Assembly: GCA_937139605.1 (NCBI GenBank)
Contig: CAKZQG010000006.1
Location: 91,133-155,132 of the forward strand
Length of the DNA stretch: 64,000 nt
From: an uncultured bacterium
GTDB lineage: Bacteria > DRYD01
Direction: 5' to 3'
Positions 16,659 through 62,951 of the stretch are shown here, one piece after another. Below the pieces are notes generated by a model. The model was not told where the DNA came from. It saw only the letters and a list, made by a program, of their open reading frames with translations, and made no database searches. The translations under genes were made by a program, and so were the position numbers. How positions within the stretch are numbered: the stretch's first letter is position 1; every line of letters begins with the position of its first letter.

Positions 16659-17662
16659 TTAAATTTTAATTTCTTTTTCAATTTTAAATGGGTTATTTTT
16701 ATCACTTATTAATATATAATTTTCTAATTTATTTAGTTTATCCTTTAGTAAATTTAAATTAAAATCATGTTTATCAAAAGACTCAATTTTAGCCAAATAA
16801 TTTAAAGCTTTTTTTAAAGTACTAATTTCAATAAAATCGGTATTTTCGTTTTCCATAAAGCTTTTAAAATCTATTACTTTAAATTTAATTTCATTAATTA
16901 AGAAATATTTAAAAAGGGAATTAATTTTTTCAACGAATTCTTCTGCTAATTTGTAATTATTAATAATAAAGAAGGTATAGTTAGTTTCATAGGTAGCTTT
17001 TTGCTTAACAACTAATTTACCAGTTTTAGCCCAATGTTTCCACGCTATTTTTTTAACATCATCTAAATAATAAGGTCTAATAGCAAAAAATTCACCTTCC
17101 TCTGTTAATTTATAAAATACTGAAGAAACAGTAGATATATTATTTATTATAATATCATAATAATTTATATTAGCGTAATTAGGATAAATATAAAATTCAA
17201 AAGGGATATTAAACATTTTATAAATATCTAATTGCTCAAATAAAAAAGAATTAACTAAATAAATTGAAAGAGTATTTAAATATCCTCTTTTAATTGCTTT
17301 AATTTTTAGTTCTTTAGTTACTTTAGAAAAAGGGGGAATATAATAGATTATATTATCTTCAGTTATTAAATCTAAATGAGCACTATTTATTTTAATTCTT
17401 AAAAAAAAACTGGGAAAATTAAGGGATTATAAATAGATAATTTAACATTAAATTCACTATTTTTAAAAGCTTCAACTACATTAGAATATACACTAATTAC
17501 TTTTAAATTATTTAAAATAACTTTAGGATAGAAATAAGATAATATCAATACTAAAGTTAATAGAATAAAAATAAAGTAAGTAAATAAAGAACCACTATTA
17601 ATAGAAATAATAAAAATAATAATATTAATAAGCCAGAGATAAAAATAATCAATTTTCTTCAT
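16659..17662 (-). pseudogene. DUF58 family membrane protein, frame broken at a run of nine T
   Basis: The track gives two ORFs: 17399-17662 (two membrane segments, then ...YNPLIFPVFF stop) and 16659-17216 (contains DDVKKIAWKHWAKTGKLVVKQ, the DUF58 hallmark). My translation of 17217-17398 shows that one added T (or loss of two) in the coding-strand T run at 17401-17409 gives one continuous frame without stops of about 334 residues, with FFLRIKINSAHLDLITEDN bridging the two. DUF58 proteins are usually about 300-430 residues. It may be a frameshift mutation, a sequencing error, or a gene expressed through slippage at the homopolymer. It follows minE by 6 bp. Confidence 0.75.
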
Positions 17663-35490: not shown

Positions 35491-36612
35491 CTAATCAAAA
35501 AATTGAATAAATTTAGTTTTAGTAGAAGATATAGGATTAATTGGAGTTATATGTTTTATAAAAGTAGTTGCATAACCACCCGTTGGCAATTTAAACGACA
35601 ATACTATTTTATATCTATTAGATTTACTTAATTCATCTTTTAAAACCTCAAATTTAATATCACTTATTTTTACAAATAAATCCCTATTATTATAAGAATT
35701 GTTAATTTCATTATTTTTGTTAATAAATAAATTTACAATTTCTTTTATGTTTTTATAATTTTTTTGATCTATATCAAACATTATCATTAAGTTTTTATTA
35801 GAAACATATATTTTTAAATCTTGATTGTTAAATAATAAAAAAACAAATAAACTCAAAAAAATATTAAAATCAAATGAAAATAATATTTCATCTTTAGATA
35901 GTTTTATTTTTTTTAGATTTTCTTTATCTTCTAAAAATTTAATTTTAAAAATGTTTTTAACATCTTTTTTAAATTCTTTAATAAAATTATATATATTATT
36001 AATTTTAGAAAACTCTTTATAATATATAATTTTATAAATCTCATCAATAATAGTTTCTTTTATTTTTTTTAATTTAAAAATAAAATCGTTTATTGAAAAA
36101 GATAGATTAATAGGGAATCTTTGATCATCATAAAAATTTAGAAAATAAAAATCTTTAAATAAAGTTAGCTTTTCTATATAAGTATTTAATTCTTTTTTAT
36201 CTATATCTCTTAAAGTTATATTAAATTCATTAAAGAGTAAATCTTGTTTTTTTAATGGCCTATCTAAATATCCCACAAACTCAAAAGATTTTATATTCTT
36301 TACTTTTTTAAAAATTTCTTCTATTTTTTTAAAAAAAATATTAACATTATTAACATTAGAAACTAAAAAAGAAAAATATTGAGTGCTTAAGGAATATTTA
36401 TCTTTTAAACCAATAAAACCAACTTTTATATTATTTTTAAAGAATATATCTGCTATTTTGAAAGTAGATACATTCTCTTTGGTTATTTTATAAATTAAGT
36501 AAGTTTTTGAAGATCTATTATTAGCTAAAAACTCATTAAAGTCAAAATAAATAGGAGCATTTATAATTTCATTAACAATAAAATCAGATGAAATAGATTT
36601 TAATTTTATAAT
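35491..36612 (-). CDS. truD: tRNA pseudouridine synthase D (starts with AUU)
   Basis: The ORF track has only 35491-36276 (from a GTG at an internal valine). My translation continues in frame to 36612: IIKLKSISSDFIVNEI, then KVGFIGLKDKYSLSTQYFSF (TruD catalytic motif, Asp in GLKD), then FVGYLDRPLKKQDLLFNEFNITLRD. This matches the start of TruD (MKLK...DFIVEEI). Full length is 373 residues. The only suitable start is ATT at 36612, six bases after AAGGAAGG; no ATG, GTG or TTG lies in frame upstream. TruD makes pseudouridine-13 in some tRNAs. Confidence 0.85.
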   Translation of the reverse strand: MIKLKSISSDFIVNEIINAPIYFDFNEFLANNRSSKTYLIYKITKENVSTFKIADIFFKNNIKVGFIGLKDKYSLSTQYFSFLVSNVNNVNIFFKKIEEIFKKVKNIKSFEFVGYLDRPLKKQDLLFNEFNITLRDIDKKELNTYIEKLTLFKDFYFLNFYDDQRFPINLSFSINDFIFKLKKIKETIIDEIYKIIYYKEFSKINNIYNFIKEFKKDVKNIFKIKFLEDKENLKKIKLSKDEILFSFDFNIFLSLFVFLLFNNQDLKIYVSNKNLMIMFDIDQKNYKNIKEIVNLFINKNNEINNSYNNRDLFVKISDIKFEVLKDELSKSNRYKIVLSFKLPTGGYATTFIKHITPINPISSTKTKFIQFFD

Positions 36613-36754
36613 TAAACACCTTCCTTTTATATTATTATCATTATTATTATTTTTCTTTAAAAATACTCGCTCCCCTATTTTTATTTTCTTTATTATTTTG
36701 CATTTTCAAATTTTATCAAGGGAAATATTTTAAATAAATTGAAATAATATAAAA

Positions 36755-55460: not shown

Positions 55461-55831
55461 GCAGACCTATTTGTATTCCGCCAATTAATGTTAATCATAT
55501 TAGCCCTATGGTCTGCAGGCGGTATTAGGCTAATTATAGGTTTTGTGCTAACTACAAGACTTAATCTCCTTGTTTTTCTATACCAATCTACTCAGATTTT
55601 TCTTAACATCAGATTTTTCTTAACATAGTTAAGTCCATCTTAAAGAACTTAATATATTTTTAAATATACACTTTTTAATAGTTGATATACAGTTTTTAAA
55701 TCCGCCTTTTATTTTAATATTATATAAAAAAATAAACAAACCTTGAAAGAAAAAAAAATTAATTTAGAATATATGTTTTTAAAAGAGGATAAACAGATAA
55801 AATATAAAATAATAAATAAGGTAGGGTTATT
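55436..55831. other. Gene-free interval with a structured RNA candidate and tandem repeats
   Basis: No ORF fits here. On the minus strand (leader of the Cys/Met gene), three pairs of complementary segments occur in the order TTAGCC, CCGCC, GCAGACC, then GGCTAA, GGCGG, GGTCTGC, all in 55461-55533. They cross one another, so only some can pair at once (alternative folds or pseudoknots). A 17-bp tandem repeat (55593-55626) and a short hairpin (CTTAAC/GTTAAG, about 55619-55633) follow. I could not match it to a known riboswitch, tmRNA, RNase P or 6S RNA. Confidence 0.5.
55593..55626. repeat. Two tandem copies of a 17-bp repeat
   Basis: CAGATTTTTCTTAACAT occurs twice in a row without a gap. It lies between tRNA-Val and the Cys/Met gene, in the presumed leader or promoter region of the latter. 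Possible binding sites; function not evident. Confidence 0.9.
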
Positions 55832-55905
55832 GGGCGGGTAGCTCAGGTGGTTAGAGCGCTTGCGTGACATGCAAGAGGTCACAGGTTCAACTCCTGTCTC
55901 GCCCA
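55832..55905 (+). tRNA. tRNA-Val (GAC)
   Basis: A cloverleaf: acceptor GGGCGGG with CTCGCCC (one G-U), D arm GCTC/GAGC, anticodon arm CTTGC/GCAAG with loop GTGACAT (anticodon GAC), T arm ACAGG/CCTGT around TTCAACT, discriminator A. Anticodon GAC reads GUC/GUU valine codons. No encoded CCA. The ORF track entry 55709-55906 is a shadow of it. Confidence 0.96.
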
Positions 55906-56024
55906 TTTTTTATCAATTCAATTTATCAAAATATTACTACCTTAAAAAATATGTAATACCGTTTTTTTAAATCCTTCATATTATATAAAATTATATAAAT
56001 ATTAAAAAGAAAGGGGAGATTATT

Positions 56025-58496
56025 ATTAGTAAAAAAAACAAATTAATAAACACTTTAGAACTAGAACCAAAACAAATTGAAATTAATTATAACAAAGAAG
56101 AAATAAAAAAGATTATAAAAAATTTTTATGATAATACCAAAGAGTATAATATTAATTTAGCAAATTTTATAGGTCAAGAAAGAGCAATAGAAGCAATAAA
56201 ATTAGGAATAAACATAAATAATGATAAATATAATATTTATGCTGCTGGGGATTACGGAGTAGGTAAAAAAACTATTATAGAATCAATTTTAAAAGAAACA
56301 TTAATAAAAAGAGAAATCCCTAATGATTGGGTATATATATATAATTTTGATGATCCATCTAGTCCAGTAAGTGTAAGCTTTAAGACTAAAAACGGTAAAA
56401 TTTTTAAAGAAAAGGTAGAAAATACCATAAAAAATTTAAGAAGTACTCTAAAAAATGCTTTTGAAGATGAAAAATTCATATCTACTAAAGAACAAGTTAT
56501 AAAAGAAACTGCAAAACAAAAAGAAAAAATTATTCAAGAAATGCAACAAGAGGCTTTAAATTTAGGTTTTTTATTACAACCCACTACTACTGGATTTTAC
56601 ATAACTCCAATAATAGGTGGAAAGCCATTATCTAATGAAGAGATCCAACAACTAGATGAAAATATAAAAAAACAGATAGAAGAAAAAGAAGAAATCTTAG
56701 AGCAAAAAATAGAAGAAAATATAAAAAAACTCAGAAAAATGGATAAAGAATTAATAGATAAATTAAAGGAAATGGATAAAGAAGTTGCTCAAAAATGGAT
56801 AGATTTTTACATTCAAGAATTAACCCAAGAACTAAACAGTATCATACTTGATACAGAAAAAGAAAAACTCAATAATTATTTTGAAGATCTAAAAAAAGAT
56901 ATAATGGAAAACTTAGAAAATTTTTTAAAATTCAAAAACAATGAAGAAAATATTCCTAACAGATATAAAGTTAATTTGTTTGTAGATAATAGCAAAATAG
57001 AAAATATCCCAATAGTTTTTGAGGAATCTCCTACTTTAGAAAATTTATTAGGTAAAGTAGATAAGGAAGTCTATCAAGGGATTTTAATAACAGATTTTAC
57101 AATGATAACTCCTGGCTCCTTACACAAAGCTAACGGAGGATACATAATTATAAACATAATAGATTTATTAAAAGAACCATTTGCTTATGAATCACTTAAA
57201 AAAACTATAAAAAATAAAAAAATAATTATAGAAGATATTTATCAACATTTAGGGATATCTACAAAGATTTTAAAACCTCAACCAATTCCATTCAACGCTA
57301 AAGTAATACTCCTGGGTCCAAGTATAATATATCATATACTTAATGAATTAGATCAAGATTTTAATGAATACTTCCAAATAGTTGCATATTTTGATAATAA
57401 CTTAGAATTAGATAAAGTTAAATACTTTAATAACAATTTAATAAATAATAAAACTCAAAAAATAAATTATGAAAAAATAAAGAAAAATATTTTAGAAAAT
57501 TATATTAAATCAATATTAAATTTAGGATTAAAAAACAATTTAAAAAAATTAGAAGAAGAAGCAATAATAGAATTGCTAAAATATATTCATAGAATATCAG
57601 ACAACAAAGAAAAATTAACATTAAAAATGTCAATTATAGAGAATATCTTAATAGAAGCGAATTATTTTTCAAACAATAATAAAAATATAAATAAAGAAGC
57701 TATAAAGAAAGCAATCGAGCATTGGGAATATAGAAACGGTATTTATAAAGAAAAAATCCAGAAATATATTTTAGAAAATACGATAGATATAAAAACTCAG
57801 GGTAAAGATATTGGAGTAGTTAATGGACTAGCTTATTTAAAAATAGGGGAATTAGCTTTTGGGAAGCCTGTTAAAATTACCTGCTCTATAGGATTAGGAA
57901 AAGAGGGAATAATATCAATAGAAAAAGAAGTAGGTTTTTCTGGACAAATTCATAATAAAGCTGTTATGATAATAACAGGATACTTTATTCAAAAATATTC
58001 TACAAATTTTCCATTAACTTTACAAGCAAGAATTTCTTTTGAACAAAATTACTCAATGTTAGAAGGAGATAGTGCTTCATTAGCAGAAGTATTAGCTCTT
58101 ATATCTCAAATATCAAATATACCGATTAAACAAAATTTAGCAATAACTGGATCTATGAACCAAAAAGGAGAAGCACAACCAGTAGGCGGGATTAAAGAAA
58201 AAGTTGAAGGATTCTTTGAAATATGTAAATATAGGAATCATTTCCCAGCTTACGTAATTATCCCTTATCAAAACATAAACGATCTAGTTCTAAAAGAAGA
58301 AGTAATCCAATATATAAAAGATAAAAAATTTAAGATATACACAGTAAAAAATATAGACGAAGCTATCCAAATTGCAACCGATCTATCCCCAGATATAGTT
58401 CATAAAAAAGTTATTAACAAGCTAAAAGAATTTTACTTAAAAAGTATCAAAAAATCAACTAATAAAACTAAAAAAAACAAAAAGAATAAACAATAA
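56025..58496 (+). CDS. LonB-type ATP-dependent protease (starts with AUU)
   Basis: The ORF track starts at 56541, but the frame is open from 56025 and encodes the family N-terminus: FIGQERAIEAIKLGININNDKYNIYAAGDYGVGKKT (ATP-binding loop), then FDDPSSPVSVSF. The C-terminal protease domain has EGDSASLAEVLAL (catalytic Ser) and GGIKEKVEGFFE (catalytic Lys). Total about 823 residues, as in the AAA_32/LonB family. No ATG, GTG or TTG begins the frame; ATT at 56025 lies six bases after AAAGGGGAG. It likely degrades unfolded or regulatory proteins. Confidence 0.88.
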   Translation: MSKKNKLINTLELEPKQIEINYNKEEIKKIIKNFYDNTKEYNINLANFIGQERAIEAIKLGININNDKYNIYAAGDYGVGKKTIIESILKETLIKREIPNDWVYIYNFDDPSSPVSVSFKTKNGKIFKEKVENTIKNLRSTLKNAFEDEKFISTKEQVIKETAKQKEKIIQEMQQEALNLGFLLQPTTTGFYITPIIGGKPLSNEEIQQLDENIKKQIEEKEEILEQKIEENIKKLRKMDKELIDKLKEMDKEVAQKWIDFYIQELTQELNSIILDTEKEKLNNYFEDLKKDIMENLENFLKFKNNEENIPNRYKVNLFVDNSKIENIPIVFEESPTLENLLGKVDKEVYQGILITDFTMITPGSLHKANGGYIIINIIDLLKEPFAYESLKKTIKNKKIIIEDIYQHLGISTKILKPQPIPFNAKVILLGPSIIYHILNELDQDFNEYFQIVAYFDNNLELDKVKYFNNNLINNKTQKINYEKIKKNILENYIKSILNLGLKNNLKKLEEEAIIELLKYIHRISDNKEKLTLKMSIIENILIEANYFSNNNKNINKEAIKKAIEHWEYRNGIYKEKIQKYILENTIDIKTQGKDIGVVNGLAYLKIGELAFGKPVKITCSIGLGKEGIISIEKEVGFSGQIHNKAVMIITGYFIQKYSTNFPLTLQARISFEQNYSMLEGDSASLAEVLALISQISNIPIKQNLAITGSMNQKGEAQPVGGIKEKVEGFFEICKYRNHFPAYVIIPYQNINDLVLKEEVIQYIKDKKFKIYTVKNIDEAIQIATDLSPDIVHKKVINKLKEFYLKSIKKSTNKTKKNKKNKQ

Positions 58497-61308: not shown

Positions 61309-62173
61309 TATCATCTTTTTTAATTAATAAAAATTACTTAACTATCTCATACTCAAAATTAACTAAATCCTTTTTTACCCTATCAAACTCTATTCCTACA
61401 AGATAAATTTTTTCATAATTTAGATATTTTTTATGATATTCTTTTTCCCTAATTTGTTTTAACGCCTTCCCTTTTTCTTCTTTCTTCTCTATAACGAAAA
61501 ATTCTATATTTGCCTTATTTGAGTTATCTGAGTTATATGTTAATATTACTTTGAACTCTATTATATATACTATTTTTTTATCCACTATTATCGTTAAATC
61601 TATCCTCCCTTTTGATGTATTATCTTCTATTATCACATCTAATCCCGTTGTATATAACATACTATATACTGCTATTACATAACTATATTCCTCTTTTAAA
61701 TACATATAACTTATTGCACTTATTAATATCTCTATTTGTTCTTTTAACTCTTCTATTTTTTCTGTTTTTAATATCTCTATTATTTTTTCTGCTATTACAT
61801 TTACCTTTGATTTCTGTTTTATTAAATTATATAATATATCTCTATTAAATGATACCCTTACTTCCTTATTCGGAAATCCTAATTCAAACAATATCCCATT
61901 TTCACTTACCTTATAATCTCTTATTGTTAAATATCCACTTTGAAACATTATCGCTTCTATCTCTATCTCTTCTACATCAAATCTATTTAATAAACTCTCA
62001 TCGGCTTTTATCCCTTCTAATTCTACTATATTATACTCCTTTTGTTTTATTAACTTTATTAAAAAACTTGGTGTTCCTGTTTCATACCAATAACTCCTTA
62101 TCTCTTTTTTTCTTAAATATAACAACACATCAAACGGATTATATACTTTACTGCCTAAAAAATTATACCCATT

Positions 62174-62207
62174 ATAACGAACGCAGTATGCGTGAGTTAT
62201 ATGAAAT
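62174..62207 (-). repeat. 34-bp hairpin element, copy C
   Basis: On the coding strand ATTTCAT is followed by a hairpin: ATAAC-tc-ACGCA-tac-TGCGT-tc-GTTAT. It is in tandem with copy B, inserted between the Tyr and Asn codons of REWYNGYN. Confidence 0.9.
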
Positions 62208-62241
62208 ATAACGAACACAGTATGTGTGAGTTATATGAAAT
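62208..62241 (-). repeat. 34-bp hairpin element, copy B
   Basis: Same as copy C except the inner stem is ACACA/TGTGT rather than ACGCA/TGCGT, two compensating changes on opposite arms. Outer stem ATAAC/GTTAT is unchanged. Confidence 0.9.
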
Positions 62242-62917
62242 ATACCATTCTCTTACTTCTTCTATATTTACATTATCCAGATACTCTCTAAAATAATGTT
62301 CTAATTCTTCTTGGGTATATCCACATATATCTCCGTATTCCTTGCTTAATGAGATATCCTCTAACTGATTTAACCCACTAAACAATGATACTTTCGCAAA
62401 TTTACTTACTCCCGTTACCAGCAGAAATTTTATATATTTATCTAATCCCTTTAATACTGAATAAAATCCTTTTAACATTTCTCTTACCTCATATACTTCT
62501 TTCTTATCCATTAAATCCAATATCGGTTTATCATACTCATCTACTAACACTACTACTTGTTTTTTAGTTTCTTTAGCTATATGCTCTATCAATAATCTCC
62601 ATTTCACATACACACTTAAATTCTCTTTTATTTTATAATCATATATCTCTGAATACCTTAATATAACTGAATATATTTGCTCTTCTAATAAGTGTTTATT
62701 TAACGTTTGGATTTCCCCAAAATCTACCCTAATTACAGGATATTTTTCATTCCAATCCCATTTATTTTCTATGTATAATCCCTTAAATAATTCTCTTTTA
62801 CCTTCGTATAGATATTCAATAGTAGATAATAATAAAGACTTCCCAAAGCGTCTAGGTCTACTTGAAAATACATACTTTGAAGTACTTAACAATTCATATA
62901 TATACTTTGTTTTATCT

Positions 62918-62951
62918 ATAACGAAGGCATAAGCCTAATGTTATATGAAAT
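62918..62951 (-). repeat. 34-bp hairpin element, copy A
   Basis: ATTTCAT then ATAAC-att-AGGC-ttat-GCCT-tc-GTTAT. Ends match copies B and C (ATTTCATATAAC at the start and TTCGTTAT at the end), while the inner stem and loop differ but still pair. It splits the V codon of NYVYVDKTK. Confidence 0.9.

Follow-up and report, generated by a model that had tools for sequence, protein, structure and literature searches.

In E. coli, pcnB and infC are translated from AUU codons that follow a strong Shine-Dalgarno sequence (SD), with no usable AUG at hand and with the codon conserved in relatives. A corresponding arrangement is known for cvfC1 (AUU), ccpN (AUA), and infC (AUA) of S. aureus, in which AUU/AUA starts with strong SDs give ~10% of the AUG output in poor medium (PMC13009471). 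Streptomyces sigR, encoding a regulatory protein, has a GTC start with a strong ribosome-binding site that is repressed by IF3 (PMC5472188). We describe here a Lon-family protease gene with a predicted AUU start in a stretch of 64,000 nucleotides (the window; G000:C6:91133-155132) from the 1.88-Mb, 45-contig genome of an uncultured bacterium (G000). The genus is represented by two species (n = 2), G000 and G001, and was compared with another genus of the same family (G002), another family of the same order (G006), and, for the TruD and infC starts, a further sister-genus genome (G003). The GC content is 22–24% in the genus and ~30% in the sister genus.

Start site of the protease gene

The reading frame of the protease is open on the plus strand from 55989, immediately after a TAA, to 58496, and frame inspection found no ATG, GTG, or TTG before 56541, in agreement with the earlier note, which had pointed to 172 open codons 5' of this ATG. 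Altogether, 184 codons of open frame have no canonical start, with an SD well spaced ahead of ATT 56025; the in-frame codons read GAG(56016) ATT(56019) ATT(56022) ATT(56025) AGT AAA AAA AAC and are preceded by AAAGGG. With ~9% of random codons being stops at 22% GC, a base-composition estimate for 172 codons remaining open by chance is ~5e-8, and the upstream stretch scores as coding by codon usage (+45.8). The SD score is 15.5 at ATT 56025 versus 6 at ATG 56541, and mRNA folding of the start region showed nothing unusual (z, 0.27). Among the other positions considered, the second ATT (56022), which had been offered as an alternative to 56025, reads GTT in G001 and was discarded in favor of the conserved third ATT; the first ATT (56019) abuts the SD, and neither of the codons further 5' (ATA 55995 and ATT 56001) has an SD. 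Judged from the sequence, translation of the gene almost certainly begins at the rare codon AUU 56025, as in the G001 copy.

Table 1. Positions of the features in the window
Feature	Position	Strand	Basis and remarks
tRNA-Val (GAC), directly 5' of the protease gene	55831..55906	+	ARAGORN; tRNA 3' end upstream in G001 too
SD of the protease gene, AAAGGGGAG	56010..56018	+	With flanks (AAAAAGAAAGGGGAGATT) kept in G001; leader diverged
Predicted start codon ATT, third of three	56025..56027	+	6 nt 3' of SD; kept in G001
Lon-family protease, AAA_32/LonB-LonC type, 823 codons	56025..58496	+	Pfam; PDB TTC1975
P-loop GDYGVGKKT, residues 75–83	56247..56273	+	Translation; aligns with the corresponding part of TTC1975
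LonC_helical domain, residues 101–133, inside the upstream segment	56325..56423	+	Pfam PF20437
First canonical in-frame codon ATG, internal, without SD	56541..56543	+	SD score
TruD paralogue, non-AUG start	35491..36612	-	Pfam TruD; NCBIfam
ATT ATA start region of the TruD paralogue	36607..36612	-	ATA aligns with ATG (G003) and GTG (G002)
SD of the second TruD paralogue, AAAAGGAAGGTG	36617..36628	-	Sequence; SD scoring

Domain structure of the protease

Pfam assigns LonC_helical (residues 101–133), AAA_32 (327–457), LonB_AAA-LID (509–570), and Lon_C (576–784) to the protease, the last three scoring over the curated cut-offs, in the same domain order as in TTC1975/LonC and the LonB-type AAA_32 proteases. 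The closest solved structure is TTC1975/LonC (PDB ID: 4fwd), to which the alignment begins at residue 47 of the query, well 5' of the ATG; the aligned residues include a predicted Ser-Lys dyad (Ser683 in GDSAS and Lys726), as in TTC1975, although the sequence identity is only distant. Checked against the Walker A consensus GxxxxGK[ST], the P-loop retains the glycines and the lysine, with Lys at the Ser/Thr place, where the relatives also differ (GKR, GKN, and GKL); the P-loop of TTC1975 is GPPSLGKH, against the GxxGxGK retained here. A start at ATG 56541 would drop the P-loop. The upstream codons had been described as an AAA_32 nucleotide-binding segment, which is right in substance, the P-loop being located there, and wrong in the label, as the AAA_32 match lies further downstream. 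Likewise, “LonB-type protease” is apt in the loose sense of a LonB/LonC-type protein with an unannotated N-terminus. Because the curated NCBIfam LonB equivalog models were not reached (TIGR00764, 136 versus a cut-off of 516.6 bits; TIGR02902, 42 versus 723 bits), we regard the protein as a LonB/LonC-type relative and not as a LonB equivalog.

Conservation of the start in the genus

The protease of G001, 86% identical at the protein level, is encoded behind the arrangement AAAGAAAGGGGAGATTGTTATTAAT, with neither a canonical start nor the A8 run found in G000, and in the identical order after tRNA-Val. Around the start site, AAAAAGAAAGGGGAGATT-R-TTATTA is kept between the two species and the rest of the leader has diverged. 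The dN/dS ratio between G000 and G001 is 0.09 (0.097/1.085) for codons 1–172 and 0.07 (0.081/1.206) for the rest of the protease, so that purifying selection acts on the 172 codons 5' of the ATG; the low ratio and the conservation in G001 argue that these codons are translated and selected as protein. Thus, both species show the features by which an AUH start was recognized, namely a conserved N-terminus out of reach of any in-frame ATG, GTG, or TTG and, before the protease ATT, a conserved SD at normal spacing. The equivalent proteases of G002 and G006 start with ATG, and AUU is therefore taken as derived in the genus; the alignment suggests that the ancestral start was likely AUG and was switched to AUU within the genus.

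A TruD paralogue in the same window was put forward in the earlier note as another AUU case. Its start is indeed non-AUG, and we place it as AUH (AUU or AUA). As with the protease, the AUH start is derived, the ATA aligning with ATG in G003 and GTG in G002. In G001, a TGA stop lies directly before ATT TTT ATA AAA of this gene, and an AUH start is therefore forced there. Members of the order carry two TruD paralogues per genome, one of them diverged (G000:C5:8269-9324 and G000:C6:127247-127738; also in G001–G003 and G006).

Frequency of AUH starts

To assess the frequency of such starts, coding sequence reaching 5' of every canonical start was searched in a 461-kb sample of stretches (24.5% of G000, 287 genes), with a sensitivity of 0.71 by in silico replacement of ATG with ATT. 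The SD-AUH starts obtained in G000 were those of the protease, the TruD paralogue, and infC, plus one ATA candidate (L088), which was rejected as a conserved AUH start since it has no intact homologue in G001. No confident AUH start was found among 200 further genes of G001, infC was the only one in G002, and neither the comparison of stop-to-stop ORFs among G000, G001, and G002 nor the alignment of homologues to the N-terminus in G001 (81 genes) and G002 (64 genes) added another conserved case. We estimate that AUU/AUH starts make up 1–2% of G000 genes at most. The idea of AUU as a possibly ordinary start in this organism is thus not supported by the sample, in which infC is the only further clear case.

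Several other extensions were set aside as AUH starts. Three long ones are homopolymer frame breaks, two at T9 and one at A9 (TilS, window position 17426, and a TlyA-like gene); those at L083, L086, and L088 have an in-frame TGA upstream and no clear AUH start; and the one 5' of the gene preceding infC (L079 8966) belongs to an overlapping gene, the ATG of the gene itself being conserved. At L083:8545-9456 (+) and L086:9990-10511 (-), the coding frame seems to run 5' past the in-frame TGA, by recoding, decay, or sequence error. The tilS gene (L088:11978-13366 (+), on G000:C43) is split into two frames at T9 just after the SGGPDS motif, by transcriptional slippage or an assembly indel; reading of AUA, the most frequent Ile codon in G000, depends on tilS. 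The TlyA-like methyltransferase gene (L085:4368-5174 (+)) has its ATG in another frame ahead of the A9 run, and the frame break of an unnamed gene (window 16659-17426 (-)) lies at a T9 run; judging from these two, slippage at homopolymers may occur often in this genome of 22% GC. Another split gene, read as two overlapping ORFs (window 61334-62918 (-)), encodes an AAA-ATPase_like + PDDEXK_9 protein of a family present dozens of times in G001 and several times in G002.

Initiation machinery

The earlier note had called for inspection of the initiator tRNA and IF3. The former is normal, with the C1 x A72 mismatch and three G-C pairs, as is the anti-SD in the 16S tail (GGATCACCTCCTTTCT), and the C-domain of IF3 is diverged. 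The C-domain scores 48–55 bits in the family versus 66–136 bits in the 38 other genomes that gave a match. The family has Leu/Ile, Lys, and Glu at the places of E. coli residues 131, 133, and 147, respectively, whereas 30 other bacteria have Arg/Lys at 131 (30/30), Arg at 133 (30/30), and Arg/Lys/His at 147 (26/30). In the infC genes of G000, G001, G002, and G003 (at L045, L043, L046, and L044), these changes appear as an FRGR loop turned into LLGK/LIGK and as Arg147 replaced by Glu. In E. coli, fidelity mutants presumably map to position 131 (also Arg99). These residues suggest that discrimination by the family IF3 could differ from that by E. coli IF3. As for infC itself, G000 and G001 begin the gene with ATA and G002 and G003 with ATC; in all four genomes the codon stands 6 nt 3' of GGAGGTGA, and the IF3 feedback logic therefore appears to be kept. 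The changes in IF3 are shared by the sister genus, in which the protease and the TruD paralogue both have canonical starts, so that IF3 alone does not explain AUU. A broader scenario, in which loss of Arg131, Arg133, and Arg147 weakened the rejection of AUU/AUA, non-infC genes of the most AT-rich genus then drifted or were tuned to AUH, and start-codon stringency is evolving in the lineage, appears rather doubtful to us.

Proposed function of the AUU start and alternative explanations

Altogether, we consider it quite likely that the gene encodes a full-length Lon-family protease whose AUU start at 56025, derived from AUG, is used through the strong SD, limits output, and is sensitive to IF3. 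The strong, well-spaced SD would select AUU 56025, which the ordinary initiator tRNA would read; the weak codon would probably hold the protease output well under the AUG level; and IF3 would destabilize the AUU complex, making the start IF3-sensitive as for infC, pcnB, cvfC1/ccpN, and sigR. A limiting protease level would be a sensible reason for a weak start. We infer AUU initiation and low output from the sequence features, and IF3 control by analogy with those genes; an IF3-sensitive regulatory role is plausible, infC itself keeping an AUA or AUC start across the family, although the IF3 C-domain is unusually diverged there.

That the protein begins at ATG 56541, with the original start lost and the upstream part now in decay, is most improbable: this ATG is the sole in-frame canonical start within the first 190 codons, but the upstream dN/dS is near that of the rest, the SD is missing there and conserved at 56010, and the P-loop would be lost. 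Still less credence can be given to a sequencing or assembly error concealing a canonical start, for example at the A8 run (56031) suspected in the earlier note. Homopolymer-associated frame breaks are present in other G000 genes, but the independent assembly G001 has the same SD-ATT without A8, and a one-base shift brings no upstream ATG, GTG, or TTG of another frame into the gene. An A8 indel would not supply a canonical start, because the run lies 3' of the ATT, is absent in G001, and has no such codon in another frame to join; programmed frameshifting or slippage at A8 was rejected for want of a start in another frame and of the run in G001.

The remaining alternatives accept the AUU start and concern its meaning. 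Routine use of AUU/AUH by an organism with relaxed fidelity machinery would fit the two non-infC AUH starts within 64 kb and the family changes in the IF3 C-domain (Arg131 to Leu/Ile, Arg133 to Lys, and Arg147 to Glu), but is improbable, as the 461-kb scan gave, outside the window, just infC and one unconserved ATA candidate, the homologue comparison with G001 and G002 (81 + 64 genes) added none, the retained AUH start of infC argues that IF3 still discriminates, and the sister genus with the same IF3 changes starts both genes canonically. A real rival on why AUU arose is neutral start-codon erosion under extreme AT pressure, with no regulatory role. The lower GC content of the genus relative to the sister genus with AUG is consistent with it, and with a diverged IF3 the change might come at little cost; on the other hand, AUU is kept in both species though one change restores AUG, the SD is strongly conserved, and nearly all other genes retain ATG, GTG, or TTG. 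On balance, we find such a neutral origin possible but unlikely.

Comparison with known systems

Gene callers limited to ATG, GTG, and TTG remove the nucleotide-binding end of the protease and the N-terminus of the TruD paralogue. Few conserved AUH starts are on record for genes other than infC, and these are two of them. With its unusual IF3, the family is a natural experiment on which residues of the C-domain determine how strictly start codons are chosen. The protease start is a fresh instance of a known device for keeping a protein scarce and no sign of common AUU starts. It shares the strong SD, the lack of a usable AUG, and the conserved codon with pcnB and infC of E. coli and with cvfC1, ccpN, and infC of S. 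aureus (PMC13009471), and the pcnB/infC/cvfC1/ccpN group likewise includes non-housekeeping genes; unlike those, the present gene belongs to an uncultured lineage rich in AT and encodes a Lon-family protease. Streptomyces sigR is similar in combining a non-canonical start and a strong ribosome-binding site with a proposed IF3-limited output, and differs in using GTC instead of AUU and in that its IF3 dependence is experimental, whereas that of the protease is predicted by analogy (PMC5472188).
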